Below are positions 5,052-18,523 of a DNA stretch of 39,826 nucleotides, piece by piece. Source of the DNA: a virus. The position numbers and the translations under genes were made by a program. The number at the start of each line of letters is the position of its first letter. The stretch's first letter is position 1. The notes under the pieces were generated by a model. It was not told the origin of the DNA. It saw nothing but the letters and a program-made list of their open reading frames with translations, and searched no databases. The stretch is taken from positions 1-39,826 of the IMG/VR virus record IMGVR_UViG_3300027608_000004; one strand, written 5' to 3'.

Positions 5052-5186
5052 GCACAATGGCCACCTTTACGCATTTTTTGTCTGGCTGGTTTACCGCTCA
5101 GGCTTTTTCCCCGACGGCCAACCTCGACCCCCGCCCCCCCCCTACTGCAACTAACTTGCAATTGCACGTGGCTTGCGAATGAAACG

Positions 5187-5283
5187 CTTGTTTGAAACGC
5201 CCGCTTGTTGAGTAAGATGAGCAACTTGGTAAGGTAACGCGTGCGATGTGCCAACACTTGTTTGAATCGCTTGCTTGAATCGG
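5187..5283 (+). repeat. Iteron-like repeats, consensus CTTGYTTGAAWCGS
   Basis: Three near-identical 14-mers are CTTGTTTGAAACGC at 5187, CTTGTTTGAATCGC at 5257 and CTTGCTTGAATCGG at 5270, the last two abutting. Further partial copies (GCTTGCTTGC, GTTTGCATCGC) follow up to about 5315. Clustered short direct repeats in the divergence zone resemble initiator or regulator binding iterons. Confidence 0.5.
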
Positions 5284-5461
5284 ATGTTTGCATCGCTATC
5301 GTCGCTTGCTTGCTGATGCATATTGGTTGCGATTGTGCATTGCCGTGCCAAGTCGGATGTTAGAGAGATGATAGATGAAAATCGCTTTGAATTGTCGCTC
5401 GGTAGGACAGTGCCATATCCGTGCCCGACGCGTAGAATGGACATCCTGACGCAATGCGCAA

Positions 5462-6829: not shown

Positions 6830-7132
6830 ATGTATACCAGCAAAAAACGACTGAAAGAAATGATGAAAGATGCCGCAACATTTTTAGGAGTGGCCACGGC
6901 GAACGAAGTTCTTGCACACGCCTCCAAGGCAAGAGTGTTTTTCGAAAGGAAACTAGGAAAACATGGATTCGATTGCGTCCAACTTTCTCCCTATAAGGAC
7001 GGGGAATGGTTAATTTCCGGGATTATTCCCAGCGAAACGCGGTTTTTCTTCAAGACTCTTGAATTGGAGGATTGGATGGACTCGCCGAGCCAAACCGCGA
7101 GTATGATTATTGATCAATATTGCAAGAGTTGA
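6830..7132 (+). CDS. Early protein, hypothetical
   Basis: This 100-residue protein starts MYTSKKRLKEMMKDAATFLG, has a basic helical N-terminus and ends SMIIDQYCKS. Start chosen at the ATG after AAAATAAAAAC; an upstream in-frame extension would run back over the previous gene. Its last nine codons are part of the duplicated block found again at 7597-7716. No family recognised. Confidence 0.6.
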   Translation: MYTSKKRLKEMMKDAATFLGVATANEVLAHASKARVFFERKLGKHGFDCVQLSPYKDGEWLISGIIPSETRFFFKTLELEDWMDSPSQTASMIIDQYCKS

Positions 7133-7223
7133 AAATAAATCATTTTAATCTTGCTTGTCGGCATTTAGTCGCCATTCTATCCACAAGACAAGCGTGACCC
7201 GCGATGCAGGGCGAAACTCACAA
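7103..7223 (+). repeat. Direct repeat of about 120 bp, copy 1
   Basis: This block is about 85-90% identical by eye to 7597-7716. It covers the last nine codons of the 6830 gene and the following non-coding stretch. Within it, GCTTGTC (7153-7159) can pair with GACAAGC (7187-7193), and GTGACCC with GGG...TCAC forms a second hairpin. The last 30 bases (GCGTGACCCGCGATGCAGGG and the following CGAAACTCAC) are identical in both copies. Confidence 0.8.
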
Positions 7224-7585: not shown

Positions 7586-7626
7586 AAACCGCAAGGATGA
7601 TCATTGATCAATATTGCAAGAGTTGA
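7582..7626 (+). pseudogene. 14-codon remnant of the 6830 gene's 3' end
   Basis: The frame reads MKTARMIIDQYCKS. Its last nine residues are identical to the C-terminus of the protein at 6830-7132. It sits in repeat copy 2 and is best explained as the end of a duplicated gene whose body was lost or replaced. It could still be translated, by ATGA coupling to the 7472 gene. Confidence 0.6.
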
Positions 7627-7716
7627 AAATAAATCTTTTTATTCTTGCTTGTCGGCATTTTGTCGCCAATCTCTACACATCCAAGCGTGACCCGCGATGC
7701 AGGGCGAAACTCACAA
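7597..7716 (+). repeat. Direct repeat of about 120 bp, copy 2
   Basis: This is the second copy of 7103-7223, offset by about 494 bp. The outer stem is reduced to GCTTG/CAAGC (7647-7651 with 7682-7686), while the final hairpin and the CGAAACTCACAA end are unchanged. As with copy 1, a gene starts shortly after it (7742). Confidence 0.8.
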
Positions 7717-7741
7717 ATCAAATCAGATCAAATCAACTACG

Positions 7742-8114: not shown

Positions 8115-8267
8115 ATGAGAATCAAAATAGAATCAGACGTGAGAAAGACGGCATTCACTGCCACCTATCAGGGGACCGGGAGCGCCAGTTCGCAGCCGAT
8201 CAACCGATCAATCAACCCTGAAACTCAACTACAAGGCGTGTCTCTGTTGCGAGCACCGTCTTGTTAG
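8115..8267 (+). CDS. Small protein ending inside an attC-type R' box
   Basis: This 50-residue frame begins MRIKIESDVRKTAF and ends APSC. Its TAG stop lies inside the GTTAGCC box at 8263-8269 that opens the relic cassette. Its codons pass through the right arm of the attC-like site in a different frame from the array genes. It may be a genuine small gene or an attC-borne leader frame like that at 16260. Confidence 0.4.
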   Translation: MRIKIESDVRKTAFTATYQGTGSASSQPINRSINPETQLQGVSLLRAPSC

Positions 8268-8269
8268 CC
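8245..8269 (+). other. Relic attC right arm and R' box (GTTAGCC)
   Basis: The sequence ending in CACCGTCTTGTTAGCC matches the right arms of the array attC sites (CGTCTTGTTAGCC at 15470 and 17568). No clear left arm is found upstream. The R' box is the exact reverse complement of GGCTAAC at 8691, so it opens a cassette that carries the 8305 gene. Confidence 0.6.
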
Positions 8270-14049: not shown

Positions 14050-14334
14050 ATGAAATTGATCGAACGAAATCCAGACATTGACCTAGACACTGAAGCCGTC
14101 CCCAAAGGGATGCAGCTAGTGGAGGGTAAACACCTAATGCCGACAGCCAGAAGCGCGAATGTTCCATTTGGAATCGCAACTCGGATCAATCAAGCAAGCC
14201 GTCGTCCTAGACCTCAAACAGTTGGCCTTATTATCAAAAACTCTGATGTCGAAAAGCTCAATTCAGCAGTTGCAAAAAAAATAGAGAAGAACGTCGTAGC
14301 GCAGACGAGCGAGAAAGGACAAGCCAATGAGTGA
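14050..14334 (+). CDS. Hypothetical protein entering the first attC site
   Basis: This 94-residue, basic protein begins MKLIERNPDIDLDTEAVPKG. Its last 15 codons lie in the left part of attC A and its stop overlaps the start of the first cassette gene. It uses the AACAATAAACGAA leader extended by ACAAACGAA. It may be the last fixed gene before the cassette array, or the remains of a cassette whose R' box (expected GTTCTTC) is no longer visible. Confidence 0.6.
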   Translation: MKLIERNPDIDLDTEAVPKGMQLVEGKHLMPTARSANVPFGIATRINQASRRPRPQTVGLIIKNSDVEKLNSAVAKKIEKNVVAQTSEKGQANE

Positions 14335-14378
14335 AAATGAAGAGCTTATGATCGTCGATCTGCCGCAACTTGTTCGGC
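14286..14378 (+). other. attC site A
   Basis: R'' GAAGAAC at 14286-14292 and R' GTTCGGC at 14372-14378. The left arm AACGTCGTAGCGCAGACGA pairs with the right arm TCGATCTGCCGCAACTTGTT, leaving small bulges. It contains the stop of the 14050 gene and the start of the 14327 gene. Confidence 0.8.
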
Positions 14379-14500
14379 TTCTTCCATCGCGGCGGTATAA
14401 CTGCCGCGAATGCGGGGAAAAATATCGCCGGAACAATCGGGACAGGTGGAAAGAGCCAATCTGCCCTCGATGCACAAACAACCGACTATCCAAACCATGA
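14327..14500 (+). CDS. Cassette 1: small zinc-ribbon protein
   Basis: This 57-residue protein has CRECGEKY (Cys26, Cys29) and ICPRC (Cys46, Cys49), a classic four-cysteine zinc ribbon or finger on a basic background. The start lies inside attC A, and the R' box is read as Gln-Leu-Val-Arg (PQLVRLLP). No in-cassette ATG exists before the zinc motif, so translation must begin in the attC. Stop overlaps the next start (ATGA). Probably nucleic-acid binding (inference). Confidence 0.65.
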   Translation: MSENEELMIVDLPQLVRLLPSRRYNCRECGEKYRRNNRDRWKEPICPRCTNNRLSKP

Positions 14501-14763
14501 TCGCAATCGTAAACGTGGGGCCGCACGACGACCCCAACCCGCTAGGTGAACGCAACTATGAACTGCGGATCAACTTCGACGTGATCGCCACCTTCAAGCA
14601 CAAGCGGGGCGATGGTCTCGCTAAATGCTTGATGCTGGCCGCTGCCGCCGAAGAACGCCAAAAGTGGGAGTTCGCCGCTAAAATCGTGGCACGCCAATCT
14701 CTGCCGAACGTCAATGTGGACTCGACTGCGGAAGCGCCCCAAGACTATGAACTCGAAAATTGA
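14497..14763 (+). CDS. Cassette 1: conserved hypothetical protein
   Basis: This 88-residue protein begins MIAIVNVGPHDDPNPLGERN, continues with YELRINFDVIATFKHKRGDG and LAKCLMLAAAAEERQKWEF. This pattern resembles small phage and cassette-borne proteins of unknown role. Its 3' end runs through the left arm of attC B (codons for LPNVNVDS). It is the second gene of a two-gene cassette. Confidence 0.65.
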   Translation: MIAIVNVGPHDDPNPLGERNYELRINFDVIATFKHKRGDGLAKCLMLAAAAEERQKWEFAAKIVARQSLPNVNVDSTAEAPQDYELEN

Positions 14764-14804
14764 ACAACCCGCTTCCGCTGGTCGAATCTCACGACTTGTT
14801 CGGC
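14703..14804 (+). other. attC site B
   Basis: R'' GCCGAAC at 14703-14709 and R' GTTCGGC at 14798-14804. GCGGAAGCG (14728-14736) pairs perfectly with CGCTTCCGC (14770-14778), flanked by CTCGAC with GTCGAA and by the AACGTC / GACTTGTT ends. This is one of the strongest hairpins in the array. Confidence 0.85.
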
Positions 14805-14929
14805 TGGGCTATCGACTCCGCTACTACTGGCGGAAAATGGTCAACTTCATCGGACTCTGCCACCGCTGTGGATCGTCCGTAAACTACACCCGGCACGGAA
14901 AAGCCATCTGCCCGAAATGTGGAAAATAA
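14747..14929 (+). CDS. Cassette 2: small zinc-ribbon protein
   Basis: This 60-residue protein ends CHRCGSSVNYTRHGKAICPK followed by CGK, a zinc ribbon with two CxxC pairs. The N-terminal part is basic (RLVRLGYRLRYYWRK). The ATG at 14747 lies in attC B and overlaps the preceding gene by 17 bases in another frame; R' is read as Arg-Leu-Val-Arg. A shorter start inside the cassette (ATG at 14837, MVNFIGL) is possible. Likely nucleic-acid or protein binding. Confidence 0.6.
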   Translation: MNSKIEQPASAGRISRLVRLGYRLRYYWRKMVNFIGLCHRCGSSVNYTRHGKAICPKCGK

Positions 14930-14939
14930 CTTTGCTGCT

Positions 14940-14988
14940 GGGGGCGGAACGGATGAGCGAGGCGCAATGTAGCTCGCCCTCTGCCCCC
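14940..14988 (+). other. Hairpin in the non-coding tail of cassette 2
   Basis: GGGGGC (14940-14945) pairs with GCCCCC (14983-14988), and GCGAG (14957-14961) with CTCGC (14973-14977) inside. It sits just after the zinc-ribbon gene stop and before attC C. No T-tract follows. It could protect the message 3' end or be a second RNA element of the cassette. Confidence 0.5.
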
Positions 14989-15002
14989 GGTGGCAATCAT
15001 CT

Positions 15003-15127
15003 GCCGAACGTCGATGTGCTGGCACCCGCTGGCGAGAAAACTAACTGAACAGATAAGATGTCCGAAATAACTAAAAACTTTGACGAAGCCGCTGATAGCG
15101 GGTTGCTCCAGCCACGCCTTGTTGGTT
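15003..15127 (+). other. attC site C
   Basis: R'' GCCGAAC at 15003-15009 and R' GTTGGTT at 15121-15127. ACCCGCT (15024-15030) pairs with AGCGGGT (15097-15103), and GTGCTGGC with GCTCCAGCCAC around it. The start codon of the next gene (15058) is in the loop. Confidence 0.85.
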
Positions 15128-15429
15128 ATCTTTGTTTTGCTGGCGGCTTGGAAGTCAACGGCGAGGGAATCAACGGATGTGCGCTGGAAATCGAACGCTC
15201 CGCACTCTCTGCTCGACCACTGCCGATGCATAGGCAATGTGCTATCCTGCCCATCGGGGAATTGCGAAAAATGGAAGCAGTAGTCGAAGCGGCAAAGTGC
15301 ATCCGGCACTGGCACGATTGCGATGGTGGCGGAATGGTGGTGAGTTCGGAACACGCCCGCAAGCTGTGGGCTGCGCTGCATGATCTTGAGGCCGACGCTG
15401 AGCGCATCCGCAACGAGAAAGATGACTGA
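15058..15429 (+). CDS. Cassette 3: hypothetical protein
   Basis: This 123-residue protein begins MSEITKNFDEAADSGLLQPR, then LVGYLCFAGG over the R' box. A Cys/His-containing middle (AAKCIRHWHDCDGGG) is followed by a helical C-terminus (HARKLWAALHDLEADAERIR). Start inside attC C; the R' box is read Arg-Leu-Val-Gly. The helical end resembles short coiled segments. No family recognised. Confidence 0.6.
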   Translation: MSEITKNFDEAADSGLLQPRLVGYLCFAGGLEVNGEGINGCALEIERSALSARPLPMHRQCAILPIGELRKMEAVVEAAKCIRHWHDCDGGGMVVSSEHARKLWAALHDLEADAERIRNEKDD

Positions 15430-16255
15430 AAACCAAGAGAGACGTTGTCGCCGTCGGATGGCGCGTCTTGTTAGCCTCTTTGAAATTATGGAAACCACCG
15501 AATACACCAAACCGCAAAAACCCCTCGGGCAACGCGCCTATGGAAGCATCCCACATCTCCCCGGCTCGCGCCGTGGACCAGCCGACAAAGGGCTGTCAGA
15601 CCAGCAATCTAGCCTCCTCACCGAGAAAACCCGCGACCGTCACGACATCATCACCGTTCAAGAAAAGCTGGACGGAAGCAATGTGGCAGTGGCGAACATC
15701 GGCGGCGAAATCGTGGCACTGATCCGCGCCGGATACCGCGCCGATGGAAGCAACTACGAGCAACACCATCACTTCGCCCGATGGGTGGACAGTCACCGCC
15801 CGCGCTTCGCGGCACTACTGCAACCCGGCGAGCGAGTCAGCGGCGAATGGCTTATGGAAGCTCATGGAACGCGCTACAACCTCCCGCATGAACCGTTCGT
15901 GGCCTTCGACATTCTGACGGGCAACGCCCGCGCCATGGCTGCCGATGTGGCAAGCCGATGTGCAGCAGTGGAAATCGTCACCCCTCGCGTGATCCACGTA
16001 GGTGGCGCGTTGAGTATCGAGGACATGCTGGCGATGCTGGAACCGTCTGGGCATGGTGCGCTTGAGTATGTGGAGGGCGCGGTGTGGCGCATGGAACGCA
16101 AAGGAGTCGTGGACTTCCTCGGGAAATACGTCCGCCCTGAAAAGGTAGATGGGAAGTATCTGAACGGAGTTGGCGGGATCGAGCGCGAACCGATCTACAA
16201 CTGGCATCCTTCTCTGGCTAGCGCCGAGTCCATCCACCCCGAATCGAAGCCCTAA
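15422..16255 (+). CDS. Cassette 4: RNA ligase of the nucleotidyltransferase superfamily
   Basis: This 277-residue protein has motif I EKLDGSNVAV with candidate adenylated Lys82, GEWLMEAHGTRY (motif III, about 141-152), FVAFDIL (IIIa), EGAVWRME (motif IV, about 218-225) and FLGKYVRP (motif V, about 232-239). The order and spacing fit the Rnl2-like RNA ligase family (PF09414). It would join RNA ends using ATP, for example to repair cut tRNA or rRNA. The ATG at 15422 lies just before attC D and overlaps the previous stop; R' is read Arg-Leu-Val-Ser. An in-cassette ATG at 15488 (METTEYTKPQ) is a good alternative start. Confidence 0.8.
   Translation: MTENQERRCRRRMARLVSLFEIMETTEYTKPQKPLGQRAYGSIPHLPGSRRGPADKGLSDQQSSLLTEKTRDRHDIITVQEKLDGSNVAVANIGGEIVALIRAGYRADGSNYEQHHHFARWVDSHRPRFAALLQPGERVSGEWLMEAHGTRYNLPHEPFVAFDILTGNARAMAADVASRCAAVEIVTPRVIHVGGALSIEDMLAMLEPSGHGALEYVEGAVWRMERKGVVDFLGKYVRPEKVDGKYLNGVGGIEREPIYNWHPSLASAESIHPESKP
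15431..15476 (+). other. attC site D (short)
   Basis: R'' is AACCAAG (15431-15437), one mismatch from the expected AACCAAC; R' GTTAGCC is at 15470-15476. GACG (15441-15444) pairs with CGTC (15464-15467), and CGCC (15449-15452) with GGCG (15460-15463). At 46 bp it is the shortest site of the array, near the lower limit of known attC lengths. Confidence 0.65.
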
Positions 16256-16351
16256 AATCATGAACCAAAATCAGACTGAATCGAAGCCGCAAGACGTCGA
16301 AAAGCTGCGACTGGTGCAGGCCAAGGGGCGATACCACACGACTTGTTCTGC
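16216..16351 (+). other. attC site E
   Basis: R'' GGCTAGC (16216-16222; one mismatch from GGCTAAC) and R' GTTCTGC (16345-16351). Its left arm CGCCGAGTCCATCC is identical over 14 bases to the left arm of attC G. Pairing with the right arm (GGGGCGATACCACACGACTT) is weaker than in the other sites. Confidence 0.6.
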
Positions 16352-16370
16352 CTCTTCCGAATTACCATGA
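16260..16370 (+). CDS. attC-borne leader peptide coupled to the cassette 5 gene
   Basis: This 36-codon frame lies almost entirely in attC E, begins MNQNQTESKPQDVEKLRLVQ and ends SSELP. Its TGA overlaps the ATG of the cassette 5 gene (ATGA at 16367). Unlike the other sites, the R' box is read in a different frame (Thr-Cys-Ser). It is probably a short leader that delivers ribosomes to the next start, not a functional protein (inference). Confidence 0.45.
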   Translation: MNQNQTESKPQDVEKLRLVQAKGRYHTTCSASSELP

Positions 16371-16645
16371 AAGCAACGATACTCGATACAGTGACCGGAG
16401 AAAAGATGACGGTCGATGGTCCCCGCTCTTGGGAGTGGGCTGAAAACAACTGGTCATGCGACTGCAACCGAAACCCTTGGGATGTGGACACGGGAAAGCC
16501 CGAGAACGTCTGTGAGGGATGCGAGCGGTTCCTTGTGGTCGAGGCGGGCATGGATGATCCAGAGGATTATGAATACACGCTGGACGAACTTAACGAGGGC
16601 TACCCAGCAGAACTCCGCGCCAAATTTCTTGGGCAGAACGCATAG
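16367..16645 (+). CDS. Cassette 5: cysteine-containing acidic hypothetical protein
   Basis: This 92-residue protein contains WAENNWSCDCNRNPWDVDTG and CEGCERFLVVEAG, then an acidic end DDPEDYEYTLDELNEGYP. The four cysteines in CxC and CxxC spacing suggest a metal site. I recognise the pattern as a conserved hypothetical. Start at the in-cassette ATG 16 bp after R', overlapping the leader frame's stop. Its end (KFLGQNA) runs over the R'' box of attC F. Confidence 0.65.
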   Translation: MKATILDTVTGEKMTVDGPRSWEWAENNWSCDCNRNPWDVDTGKPENVCEGCERFLVVEAGMDDPEDYEYTLDELNEGYPAELRAKFLGQNA

Positions 16646-16743
16646 CTCTGGCACCTCGCCCGAATAATCACCGACTAAAATCATGCCTAAAACATCCGAA
16701 CAACCAACAGCCCGCGAGGTTGTCCAGCAGCGTCTTGTTGGGC
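16633..16743 (+). other. attC site F
   Basis: R'' GCAGAAC at 16633-16639 and R' GTTGGGC at 16737-16743. ACCTCGC (16653-16659) pairs with GCGAGGT (16714-16720), followed by CTGG with CCAG and the AACGC / GCGTCTTGTT ends. The start of the cassette 6 gene (16683) is in the loop. Confidence 0.85.
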
Positions 16744-16940
16744 TTTCTTTGGAATCCGTCTGCGCGGAAATCTACCAGCACAAGAACTGGCACAACCTCA
16801 CGTTCGAGGAAGAGGTGCTTGTCTCACGGCTGGAACAATCAGGCCACCTCCGCCCCTCATCGCAGGGATTCGTCGGTGGTCTTACTTCTCAGCCCAACGC
16901 CGAGTCCATCCGCCACCACCATAACCACGAAAAACAATGA
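16683..16940 (+). CDS. Cassette 6: small helical hypothetical protein
   Basis: This 85-residue protein contains LSLESVCAEIYQHKNWHNLT and FEEEVLVSRLEQSGHLRP. The start is in attC F and R' is read Arg-Leu-Val-Gly. There is no later Met, so the attC-borne start is required. The tail (SQPNAESIRHHHNHEKQ) is encoded by the left arm of attC G, including a His-rich end. Its stop overlaps the next start (ATGA). Confidence 0.6.
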   Translation: MPKTSEQPTAREVVQQRLVGLSLESVCAEIYQHKNWHNLTFEEEVLVSRLEQSGHLRPSSQGFVGGLTSQPNAESIRHHHNHEKQ

Positions 16941-17021
16941 ATACCAATACCGCTATACCGAAGGAATCCAACGCCGCCAAACAAGAGGCTGGTGGGGGTT
17001 GGATGAGACGCCTTGTTCGTT
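16892..17021 (+). other. attC site G
   Basis: R'' GCCCAAC at 16892-16898 and R' GTTCGTT at 17015-17021. The left arm AACGCCGAGTCCATCC pairs with the right arm GGATGAGACGCCTTGTT. The ATGA junction between the cassette 6 and 7 genes lies in the loop. Confidence 0.85.
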
Positions 17022-17155
17022 TTCTTTTGGAATCCATCGCGCTGATAGCCTGCATCGCTGCCATTCTATGGCTGGCAAAATGCCCCGGCGATCTTGAGTG
17101 GTGGAGGCCAATCTGCATTGGGCTTCTGCTTTCGATCATCAAACGCCTCTTGTGA
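16937..17155 (+). CDS. Cassette 7: small two-helix membrane protein
   Basis: This 72-residue protein has two hydrophobic helices, about 29-46 (FLLESIALIACIAAILWL) and about 57-72 (RPICIGLLLSIIKRLL), after a hydrophilic N-terminus. R' is read Arg-Leu-Val-Arg. An alternative start at ATG 17003 (MRRLVRFLL) would still lie in the attC. Small membrane proteins are frequent cassette cargo. Possible exclusion or membrane-targeting role (inference). Confidence 0.6.
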   Translation: MNTNTAIPKESNAAKQEAGGGWMRRLVRFLLESIALIACIAAILWLAKCPGDLEWWRPICIGLLLSIIKRLL

Positions 17156-17282
17156 AACGAACGCAAAAGAGATGACACCCCCACTGAGGGGTAGCGTCGA
17201 AACGGGAAAAGAATCATGAAATCAGATACGACTATGACGACAGAAAACGTAGTGGGGGTTGATCATCCTCGCCTTGTTCGGC
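17156..17282 (+). other. attC site H
   Basis: R'' AACGAAC at 17156-17162, directly after the cassette 7 stop codon, and R' GTTCGGC at 17276-17282. CCCCCACT (17178-17185) pairs with AGTGGGGG (17251-17258), and GATGA with TCATC outside it. Confidence 0.9.
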
Positions 17283-17497
17283 CAGCTTTTGCGCCGCGTG
17301 AGATGGTGAGCCACATCACGGACGAAAGCTCTGCTGGTATCATCGTAGCCTTCATGATGCGCGGATCAAATCACAGCTACGAAGTGCAATGGGGGATCGA
17401 AAAATGCACATGGCATCTTGACTTTGAACTCAGGGCAAAAGCTGACCAACCACGGCAAATCGGATTCTGGTCTGAAAATGGTCTGCCGAACGCATAA
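17216..17497 (+). CDS. Cassette 8: small beta-rich hypothetical protein
   Basis: This 93-residue protein contains REMVSHITDESSAGIIVAFM and NHSYEVQWGIEKCTWHLDFE, an SH3-like small beta-barrel pattern common in phage and mobile-element hypotheticals. The start is in attC H, and R' is read Arg-Leu-Val-Arg. An in-cassette Met (MVSHIT) is an alternative. The last residues (GLPNA) come from the R'' box of attC I. Confidence 0.6.
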   Translation: MKSDTTMTTENVVGVDHPRLVRPAFAPREMVSHITDESSAGIIVAFMMRGSNHSYEVQWGIEKCTWHLDFELRAKADQPRQIGFWSENGLPNA

Positions 17498-17574
17498 GCT
17501 CATGGATGCCGCATCACAGACTCCCGAACTCGCCAAAGACGCTGCGCGGCATTCCATGCAGCGTCTTGTTAGCC
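17485..17574 (+). other. attC site I
   Basis: R'' GCCGAAC at 17485-17491 and R' GTTAGCC at 17568-17574. CATGGATGCCGC (17501-17512) pairs with GCGGCATTCCATG (17546-17558) with one extrahelical base, as expected for attC. Confidence 0.9.
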
Positions 17575-18248
17575 CTCTTTTGGTGGCTGCGATACCATCG
17601 AAGGAGGCCGAACCGTTCTTACTGATGCGGCACTATGCAAAGCGGATGTGTCCGATCTCCTACGCCTTCGGAGCGTGGAGGGGAACGGAGCTTGTCGGGG
17701 TGGTGACATATGGAACGCCTGTAAGCTCAAATCTGCGGGATGGAATCTGCGGCAAGGAATGGTCGGCAAACGTGGTGGAACTGAATCGCCTGTGCTGCGA
17801 AAACTCCCCGAACGTGGCAAGCCTACTTGTGGGAAGGTCACTAAGACTTCTGCCGAAACCGTCCGTGGTGGTAAGCTACGCGGACACGGCGCAAGGGCAT
17901 GTCGGCTACATCTACCAAGCAACGAACTTCATCTACACCGGACTGAGCGCGAAGCGCACAGACTGGAAAATCAAAGGCCGCGAACATCTCCACGGCGCAA
18001 CCGTGGCAGACGAAAGCCGAGGCCAAGCCAACCGCGCCGAATGGATGCGCGCTAAATACGGCGACGACTTCTATCTCGATGACCGCCCGCGAAAGCATCG
18101 CTACGTCTTCGCAGTGGGAACGAAAAAGCAACAGGCCGCAATCAGGGCGGCTCTCAAATACCCTGTGGAACCATACCCGAAAGGACAAAGCCAACGCTAT
18201 GAAATCAACGCACCGATCACCACGCAAACCGCCTTTCTCTTGGGCTAA
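17502..18248 (+). CDS. Cassette 9: Mom-like DNA modification protein
   Basis: This 248-residue protein has an acetyltransferase-like (GNAT) core: MRHYAKRMCPISYAFGAWRG, LVGVVTYGTPVSS, VVELNRLCCENSPNVASLLV, then VVVSYADTAQGHVGYIYQAT and NFIYTG. This set, especially SYAD..(Q)GH.G.IY.ATN, is characteristic of the phage Mu Mom-like family, which converts adenine to a carbamoylmethylated form and blocks restriction. About 30 N-terminal residues through MQRLVS come from attC I; Mets before R' exist but none between R' and the core except LLMRHY. The stop codon falls in the R'' box of attC J. Confidence 0.7.
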   Translation: MDAASQTPELAKDAARHSMQRLVSPLLVAAIPSKEAEPFLLMRHYAKRMCPISYAFGAWRGTELVGVVTYGTPVSSNLRDGICGKEWSANVVELNRLCCENSPNVASLLVGRSLRLLPKPSVVVSYADTAQGHVGYIYQATNFIYTGLSAKRTDWKIKGREHLHGATVADESRGQANRAEWMRAKYGDDFYLDDRPRKHRYVFAVGTKKQQAAIRAALKYPVEPYPKGQSQRYEINAPITTQTAFLLG

Positions 18249-18330
18249 CGCCGATGTGGAGGCACGCGACCAATGAAGCCCGAATCCAACAATAAACGTC
18301 CCTCGCGTTGCCTCGCACGCCTTGTTCTCG
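18243..18330 (+). other. attC site J
   Basis: R'' GGCTAAC at 18243-18249 and R' GTTCTCG at 18324-18330. GGAGGCACGCG (18258-18268) pairs with CGCGTTGCCTC (18304-18314) with one extrahelical base, followed by the CACGCCTTGTT end. Confidence 0.9.
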
Positions 18331-18476
18331 GTAGCTGGCATTCAGTGTGGGCGTGTTACCACCTCGAAAGAGTGGATGACCTGAGAACATTCACGATGTC
18401 CGATGGATCATCCCACCATGACAACCGATACAAACACCACCGACGCGCACTAAATAAATTGTCCGAGAACAGTTAA
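18273..18476 (+). CDS. Cassette 10: small hypothetical protein
   Basis: This 67-residue protein begins MKPESNNKRPSRCLARLVLG, then SWHSVWACYHLERVDDLR, and ends in a basic His-rich stretch (NRYKHHRRALNKLSENS). The start lies in the loop of attC J and R' is read Arg-Leu-Val-Leu. No ATG lies near the cassette start. The last codons pass through the R'' box CGAGAAC at 18464. Confidence 0.55.
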   Translation: MKPESNNKRPSRCLARLVLGSWHSVWACYHLERVDDLRTFTMSDGSSHHDNRYKHHRRALNKLSENS

Positions 18477-18503
18477 TTATACCCACCTACGGGTGCCAAT
18501 AAC
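18464..18503 (+). other. Truncated attC at the end of the array
   Basis: R'' CGAGAAC (18464-18470) is the exact complement of the R' box of cassette 10, but no right arm or CTTGTT box follows. Instead a small nested hairpin occurs: GTTA (18472-18475) with TAAC (18500-18503) and ACCC (18481-18484) with GGGT (18491-18494). This marks the downstream edge of the array. Confidence 0.6.
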
Positions 18504-18523
18504 CACAAAAATAAAACAAGAAC

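Follow-up and report, generated by a model that had tools for sequence, protein, structure and literature searches.

A ten-site attC array with apparently inverted gene polarity in the early region of an uncultivated tailed phage

The virus record IMGVR_UViG_3300027608_000004 from IMG/VR was analysed over its full length of 39,826 bp (the window), which includes a 127-bp terminal repeat. It contains ten attC sites, the recombination sites of integron gene cassettes, interleaved with small plus-strand genes that include a Mom-like DNA modification gene and an RNA ligase gene (Table 1). An earlier reading of the letters alone, the original prediction, had placed ten attC sites of one orientation here in a genome without an integrase. 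Both claims hold. The CTTGTT positions and two models, R1 and R2, agree on the sites, and a profile search finds no PF00589 or TIGR02249 protein in the window. PF00589 is likewise absent from 37 related records. With nine strong sites within 4 kb and no nearby intI, the array belongs to the clusters of attC sites lacking integron-integrases (CALINs), defined by at least two clustered sites. A complete integron combines intI, attI and the cassette promoter Pc; the window lacks intI, and an attI-like anchor at 18467 remains a candidate. Related phages were retrieved by their Holliday junction resolvase, and records used for comparison bear L numbers.

The CTTGTT motif occurs at 14369, 14795, 15118, 15467, 16342, 16734, 17012, 17273, 17565 and 18321, always in the same orientation and at a spacing of 261–875 bp. 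A combined R-box and arm score of 13 or more is reached by 10 plus-strand sites and by none on the other strand, against 0.5 expected in dinucleotide-shuffled genomes. R1 is a covariance model trained on the minus strand of 28 sites, taken from the window and its relatives. It matches 9 of the 10 sites at 47–75 bits (E 3e-14 to 3e-8), five of the array sites being among its training sites. R2 is an independent, sequence-only model without base pairs, made from bacterial attC and one class 1 site. It matches six array sites at E < 0.01 as well as part of site 7, and all its significant matches lie on the minus strand. An Rfam scan of the window gave no match at E ≤ 1.

The structure of the hairpins is conserved. 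The covariation score is 0.862, compared with 0.207 for shuffled and 0.07–0.14 for slid alignments; 93.5% of the cells are paired, and double changes occur in 14 of 14 pairs, the compensatory pattern of paired L boxes. The R boxes (RYYYAAC and GTTRRRY) terminate the hairpin on both sides, with invariant AAC and GTT ends from which window sites 4 and 5 deviate. Extrahelical bases, about 6 nt apart, are found on the CTTGTT arm, the first being C more often than G. The comparison with shuffled sequence, which the original prediction had named as a check, favours the sites by a wide margin, and the ten-site array is a genuine attC array. Site 5 is degenerate and has probably lost activity. A solitary half site 6 kb upstream of the array is probably a remnant.

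The original prediction assigned R' to the CTTGTT end and took the minus strand as the recombinogenic bottom strand. Both assignments are reversed by the comparisons. In known integrons, R1 matches attC on the same strand as the cassette genes: the class 1 dfrA21 site (42 bits), aac(6')-29, and arrays of Shewanella and Vibrio. Bacterial arrays are likewise matched on the gene strand. Because a model built from phage sites recognises known attC on their gene strand, it fixes the polarity of the phage attC. An AACG is invariant at the left of the phage sites, in agreement with the published R', where G follows AAC. Extrahelical bases define the R''-L'' arm (PMC2727003), and since they sit on the CTTGTT arm, this arm corresponds to R''-L''. 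The crossover thus belongs in R' at the left AAC|G end, and CTTGTT on the right is R''; attC occupies the minus strand, the genes the plus strand. With R' at the left end, each cassette is an attC and, after it, a gene of the opposite strand. It is the plus strand that would serve as the recombinogenic "bottom strand", and the genes lie on the strand opposite to the usual one. In a standard cassette the gene lies on the attC strand with attC at its 3' side; here attC sits 5' of the gene. Homology of the Mom-like and RNA ligase genes (E-values in Table 1) backs the plus-strand gene orientation.

To compare gene polarity between arrays, the longest open reading frame (ORF) of each inter-attC interval was set against the attC strand, which gives crude calls. 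Genes are antisense to attC in 8/9 intervals of the window, 29/34 of its relatives and 18/19 of the IntI-bearing contigs L139, L134, L141 and L144. This amounts to 55/62, compared with 3/47 in bacterial, plasmid and temperate-phage control intervals (p = 2e-19). The controls include Akkermansiaceae chromosomal arrays of the same attC type. Some of the phage intervals scored as canonical are probably shadow ORFs. In further contigs with related IntI, 61 of 74 intervals are inverted. The inverted layout recurs across many uncultivated phages.

Most phage cassette genes appear to start within their own attC and to continue in frame across R''. By direct reading, nine of the ten ORFs in the window pass through CTTGTT as (R/Q)LV. 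We counted ATG-open paths within attC, with the gene frame defined downstream of R'' only. Such a leader is found in the gene frame at 25/40 sites of the phage family vs 20/80 in the other frames, and at 71/89 vs 30/178 in the IntI contigs. Leaders and gene bodies recombine phase-matched. The leader ending PSDATACS of L010 and L139 stands before different bodies, and a single membrane-protein body of L008 is carried on two leaders. Leaders common to CALIN and IntI phages occur in L010/L139 and L006/L139.

The array locus differs in size between related phages. It measures 278–284 bp without attC in L003 and L007, 1,952 bp with four attC in L038, and 4,746 bp with ten in the window. The flanks of L038 and the window share 91–93% protein identity. 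Their homology stops at AACG on the left and resumes at GAACAG on the right, so the array is bounded by AAC on both sides. Whole cassettes running from AAC to AAC are shared by the window and L008 (Mom, 93.6%), L010 and L049 (95.7%), and L021 and L038 (91.3%). L011 has one additional cassette relative to L012, again bounded by AAC. These alignments show gain and loss of whole cassettes at the core AAC among related phages. The cassette-wise differences anticipated by the original prediction are thus found, but both boundaries lie at the left AAC and not at CTTG|TT.

Shorter segments are shared as well. The gene body alone, from CTTGTT to AAC, is common to four groups (L008/L040, L010/L038/L021, L005/L010 and L006/L049). 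The attC alone, from AAC to CTTGTT, is common to two pairs; one attC of L010 is 91% identical to one of L139. Since some exchanges end at R'', attC-encoded leaders and gene bodies would be shuffled separately. Loss of the extrahelical bases raises top-strand recombination and moves it to R'' (PMC2727003). Such a shift could be the source of the body-only and attC-only segments; homologous recombination is another possible source. Translational fusion by IntI with the main crossover at CTTGTT was considered and rejected as the main route, given the strands matched by R1 and R2 and the AAC boundaries; it is kept for minor R'' events. At position 13449 of L010, phage DNA directly adjoins a gene body that has an identical counterpart (100%) in L038 but no attC of its own, a cassette that has lost its recombination site.

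We favour, with a probability of about 0.86, the interpretation of the locus as an inverted CALIN situated in a tailed phage's early region, with Verrucomicrobia-type attC on the minus strand and antisense genes that start in attC. The cassette unit would be an attC plus the plus-strand gene after it. Most genes would start in the attC loop and be translated through R'', with stops often in the next attC. The array would form an operon of overlapping genes whose transcription belongs to that of the phage early genes and does not depend on an integron Pc promoter. IntI supplied in trans, by a chromosomal integron of the host or a co-infecting IntI phage, would excise and insert cassettes via the folded plus strand. 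Rarer R'' events, in which the other attC strand recombines, may move N-terminal leaders encoded in attC from one gene body to another.

Several points weigh against this interpretation. Homologous recombination can also swap array segments, and the evidence consists of compared sequences. For the window alone the frame test is underpowered and its result not significant (3/6 vs 3/12). Some genes may instead start at an in-frame GTG or TTG after R''. R' boxes are damaged in two of the ten sites, and the hosts are known by inference only.

IntI genes do occur in phages, a point absent from the original prediction, as are the inverted polarity, the gene starts in attC and the exchange of leaders and bodies. 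Many IMG/VR contigs encode IntI. The proteins of L139 and L134 score 281 and 353 bits against a curated cutoff of 265; both contigs are phages, with portal, terminase, and tail or head genes, and both arrays are inverted. The IntI gene of L277 also lies within a phage contig, and the phage matches of L293 are weaker. A search for terminase family phrog_38 in contigs of the L139 clade gave no match, which leaves L139, L134 and L277 as the only contigs with good support as phages and L293 with less. Together with L272–L305, L139 and L134 form a sizeable phage IntI clade, 44–75% identical to the L139 IntI, whose best bacterial relative has 44% identity. Several contigs of the clade bear long inverted arrays, with about a dozen attC in L287. 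In a FastTree phylogeny, whose deep support is weak, the largest group of viral IntI falls among those of Verrucomicrobia.

A co-infecting IntI-encoding phage of the L139 type is one potential source of the integrase. L139 and L010, a CALIN phage, stem from one metagenome and hold an attC in common at 91% identity. The leaders common to CALIN and IntI phages, and the placement of the large viral IntI clade among Verrucomicrobia IntI, argue in the same direction. Co-infection is itself an assumption, and host IntI may act instead; we consider the chances of this source evenly balanced. The same even odds apply to a wider proposal, that tailed phages own an integron lineage with inverted cassettes. 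Here attC would be both recombination site and start codon with leader, leaders and bodies would be shuffled in frame, and polarity would separate these cassettes from bacterial ones. With both attC ends serving as exchange points, such arrays would act as a natural generator of protein fusions.

Alternatively, IntI may come from the chromosomal integron of the host, with the phage cassettes drawn from that pool. The best bacterial attC matches, of up to 64.8 bits, are found in Akkermansiaceae and Luteolibacter, whose attC consensus is nearly identical to that of the phages. The genes in these arrays are canonical. As host cassettes are thus oriented oppositely, the two pools look separate. 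A relative of the phage Mom is present in just 1 of 254 Akkermansiaceae-family genomes, and the stretch fetched around it holds no attC. We regard this source as tentative, somewhat short of an even chance. The host of the phage itself is probably a member of the Verrucomicrobia. A 68% identical relative of the Holliday junction resolvase occurs in 1 of 388 Verrucomicrobiota genomes, and the window terminase has only weak relatives among 387 genomes of the order of Akkermansiaceae. A search of window DNA against 260 Akkermansiaceae-family genomes for clustered regularly interspaced short palindromic repeats (CRISPR) or sequence links gave mainly short weak matches and no usable host link.

A canonical polarity, with R' at CTTG|TT, cassettes made of a gene body and the following attC, and the minus strand as bottom strand, is very unlikely. 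The four groups of gene bodies shared without attC do begin at CTTGTT, as it would predict. However, no common segment runs from CTTGTT to CTTGTT, the whole-cassette shares and the L011/L012 difference all run from AAC to AAC, and with models of bacterial attC only minus-strand matches arise, bacterial genes lying on the model strand. A view of the hairpins as RNA elements for regulation or termination in a tight operon, spread by homologous recombination only, is hardly credible despite their strong RNA-compatible covariation, given the match to bacterial integron attC, the association with IntI and the cassette boundaries at the core AAC.

The usual description of an integron is that of a bacterial device whose choice of attC strand ensures expression of the inserted gene from the platform promoter. 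A polarity flipped across many phages would mean that phage and bacterial cassette pools are each expressed only in their own context. Among 60 cassette proteins from these phages, there are matches to C5 methylase (5), N6/N4 methylase (5), RNA ligase (4), Mom (3) and Dam (1). This cargo may serve counter-defence, and the findings suggest a cassette economy of the viruses' own for genes of DNA modification and RNA repair. The arrays would also offer a natural example of translated recombination sites, in which the role of attC polarity becomes directly testable.

Phage CALINs as such are already known, and the earlier statement that phage-borne arrays of this length in a virulent-type genome are not an established class is not supported. 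CALINs with attC functional with IntI1 were reported from the virulent phages TJE1, PH101 and P12002L (Qi et al. 2023, PMC9892861). They resemble the window in their attC clusters without intI in lytic phages and their methyltransferase cargo. TJE1 has 3 attC (Figure 2A there) whereas the window has ten, and gene orientation in TJE1 and PH101 is described as typical (PMC9892861), while the window genes are antisense and start inside attC. An R1 search of TJE1 gave no match, and its polarity is taken from the published description.

Other known systems share parts of the layout. The sedentary chromosomal integrons of the Verrucomicrobia Akkermansiaceae bacterium D14.bin.19 and Luteolibacter CoA8N_E16 closely match the window in attC consensus and length, and IntI neighbours are a further shared trait; they differ in being chromosomal and in carrying genes on the attC strand that start after the preceding R'. 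Class 1 mobile integrons share the attC architecture, as in the dfrA21 site recognised by R1, but differ in gene polarity, Pc-driven expression and the lack of attC translation. Complete integrons of temperate phages (Vibrio Va_90-11-286_p16 and Shewanella M16-3) combine intI and an attC array in a phage, but have canonical polarity and are described as captured pieces of host integrons. In the literature searched, which did not extend to preprints, no report was found of inverted cassette polarity, translated attC or an L139-type phage IntI clade.

Table 1 Features of the array and of related elements in the window.
Feature	Position	Strand	Remarks
attC 1	14286–14378	-	R' core AAC 14290, R'' GTT 14372; R1 46.9 bits; first cassette boundary, left L038 homology stops at its AACG
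Cassette 1 gene, zinc-ribbon-like, 57 aa	14327–14500	+	Start within attC 1; weak Pfam Zn ribbon, E 7e-4
attC 2	14703–14804	-	R1 62.5 bits; R2 E 2e-4
Cassette 2 gene, zinc-ribbon-like, 60 aa	14747–14929	+	Start within attC 2; weak Pfam Zn ribbon, E 4e-4
attC 3	15003–15127	-	R1 51.2 bits; R2 E 0.007
Cassette 3 gene, 123 aa, unknown	15058–15429	+	Start within attC 3, stop within attC 4
attC 4	15391–15476	-	Degenerate R' box, GAC for AAC; R1 47.9 bits; R2 E 4e-7
Cassette 4 gene, RNA ligase, 277 aa	15422–16255	+	Start within attC 4, ATGA overlap with preceding stop; PF09414 E 4e-19
attC 5	16217–16351	-	R' = AGC, arms unpaired, left half like attC 7; R1 10.2 bits at R'' end only
Cassette 5 gene, 92 aa, unknown	16367–16645	+	Start downstream of attC 5
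attC 6	16633–16743	-	R1 56.3 bits
Cassette 6 gene, 85 aa	16683–16940	+	Start within attC 6
attC 7	16892–17021	-	R1 52.7 bits; R2 E 8e-5, partial
Cassette 7 gene, 72 aa	16937–17155	+	Start within attC 7; hydrophobic stretch suggests membrane protein
attC 8	17156–17282	-	R1 55.7 bits; R2 E 0.007
Cassette 8 gene, 93 aa	17216–17497	+	Start within attC 8; ends in PNA and stop at next R' box
attC 9	17485–17574	-	R1 74.3 bits; R2 E 2e-5
Cassette 9 gene, Mom-like DNA modification protein, 248 aa	17502–18248	+	Start within attC 9; PF25680 E 2.5e-39; phrog_1384 E 3e-53
attC 10	18243–18330	-	R1 75.2 bits; R2 E 3e-6
Cassette 10 gene, 67 aa	18273–18476	+	Start within attC 10
Conserved array-end anchor, GAACAGTTAATTATNCCCACC...GGGTGCCAATAACC	18467–18512		Candidate attI-like site
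Partial solitary attC-like site	8177–8269	-	R2 E 1.6e-5 at 8215–8269 (model positions 1–55, half); R1 16.8 bits

The GAACAGTTAATTATNCCCACC element is found at the same array end in the window, L038, L049, L357 and L358, beside different genes. It could be an integration anchor of the attI type. The array end and flank of L355 (IMGVR 3300027659_000616) are as in the window, making it a second sample of this phage type. Two further features lie outside the array. Near-identical stretches of about 100 bp (TTGATCAATATTGCAAGAGTTGAAAATAAAT...) are present at about 7108–7220 and 7605–7720, between small early genes. The non-coding region 5140–5350, located between divergent gene blocks, contains many repeated CGCTTGTTTGAA/GAATCGCTTG motifs and is a possible origin or regulatory region.

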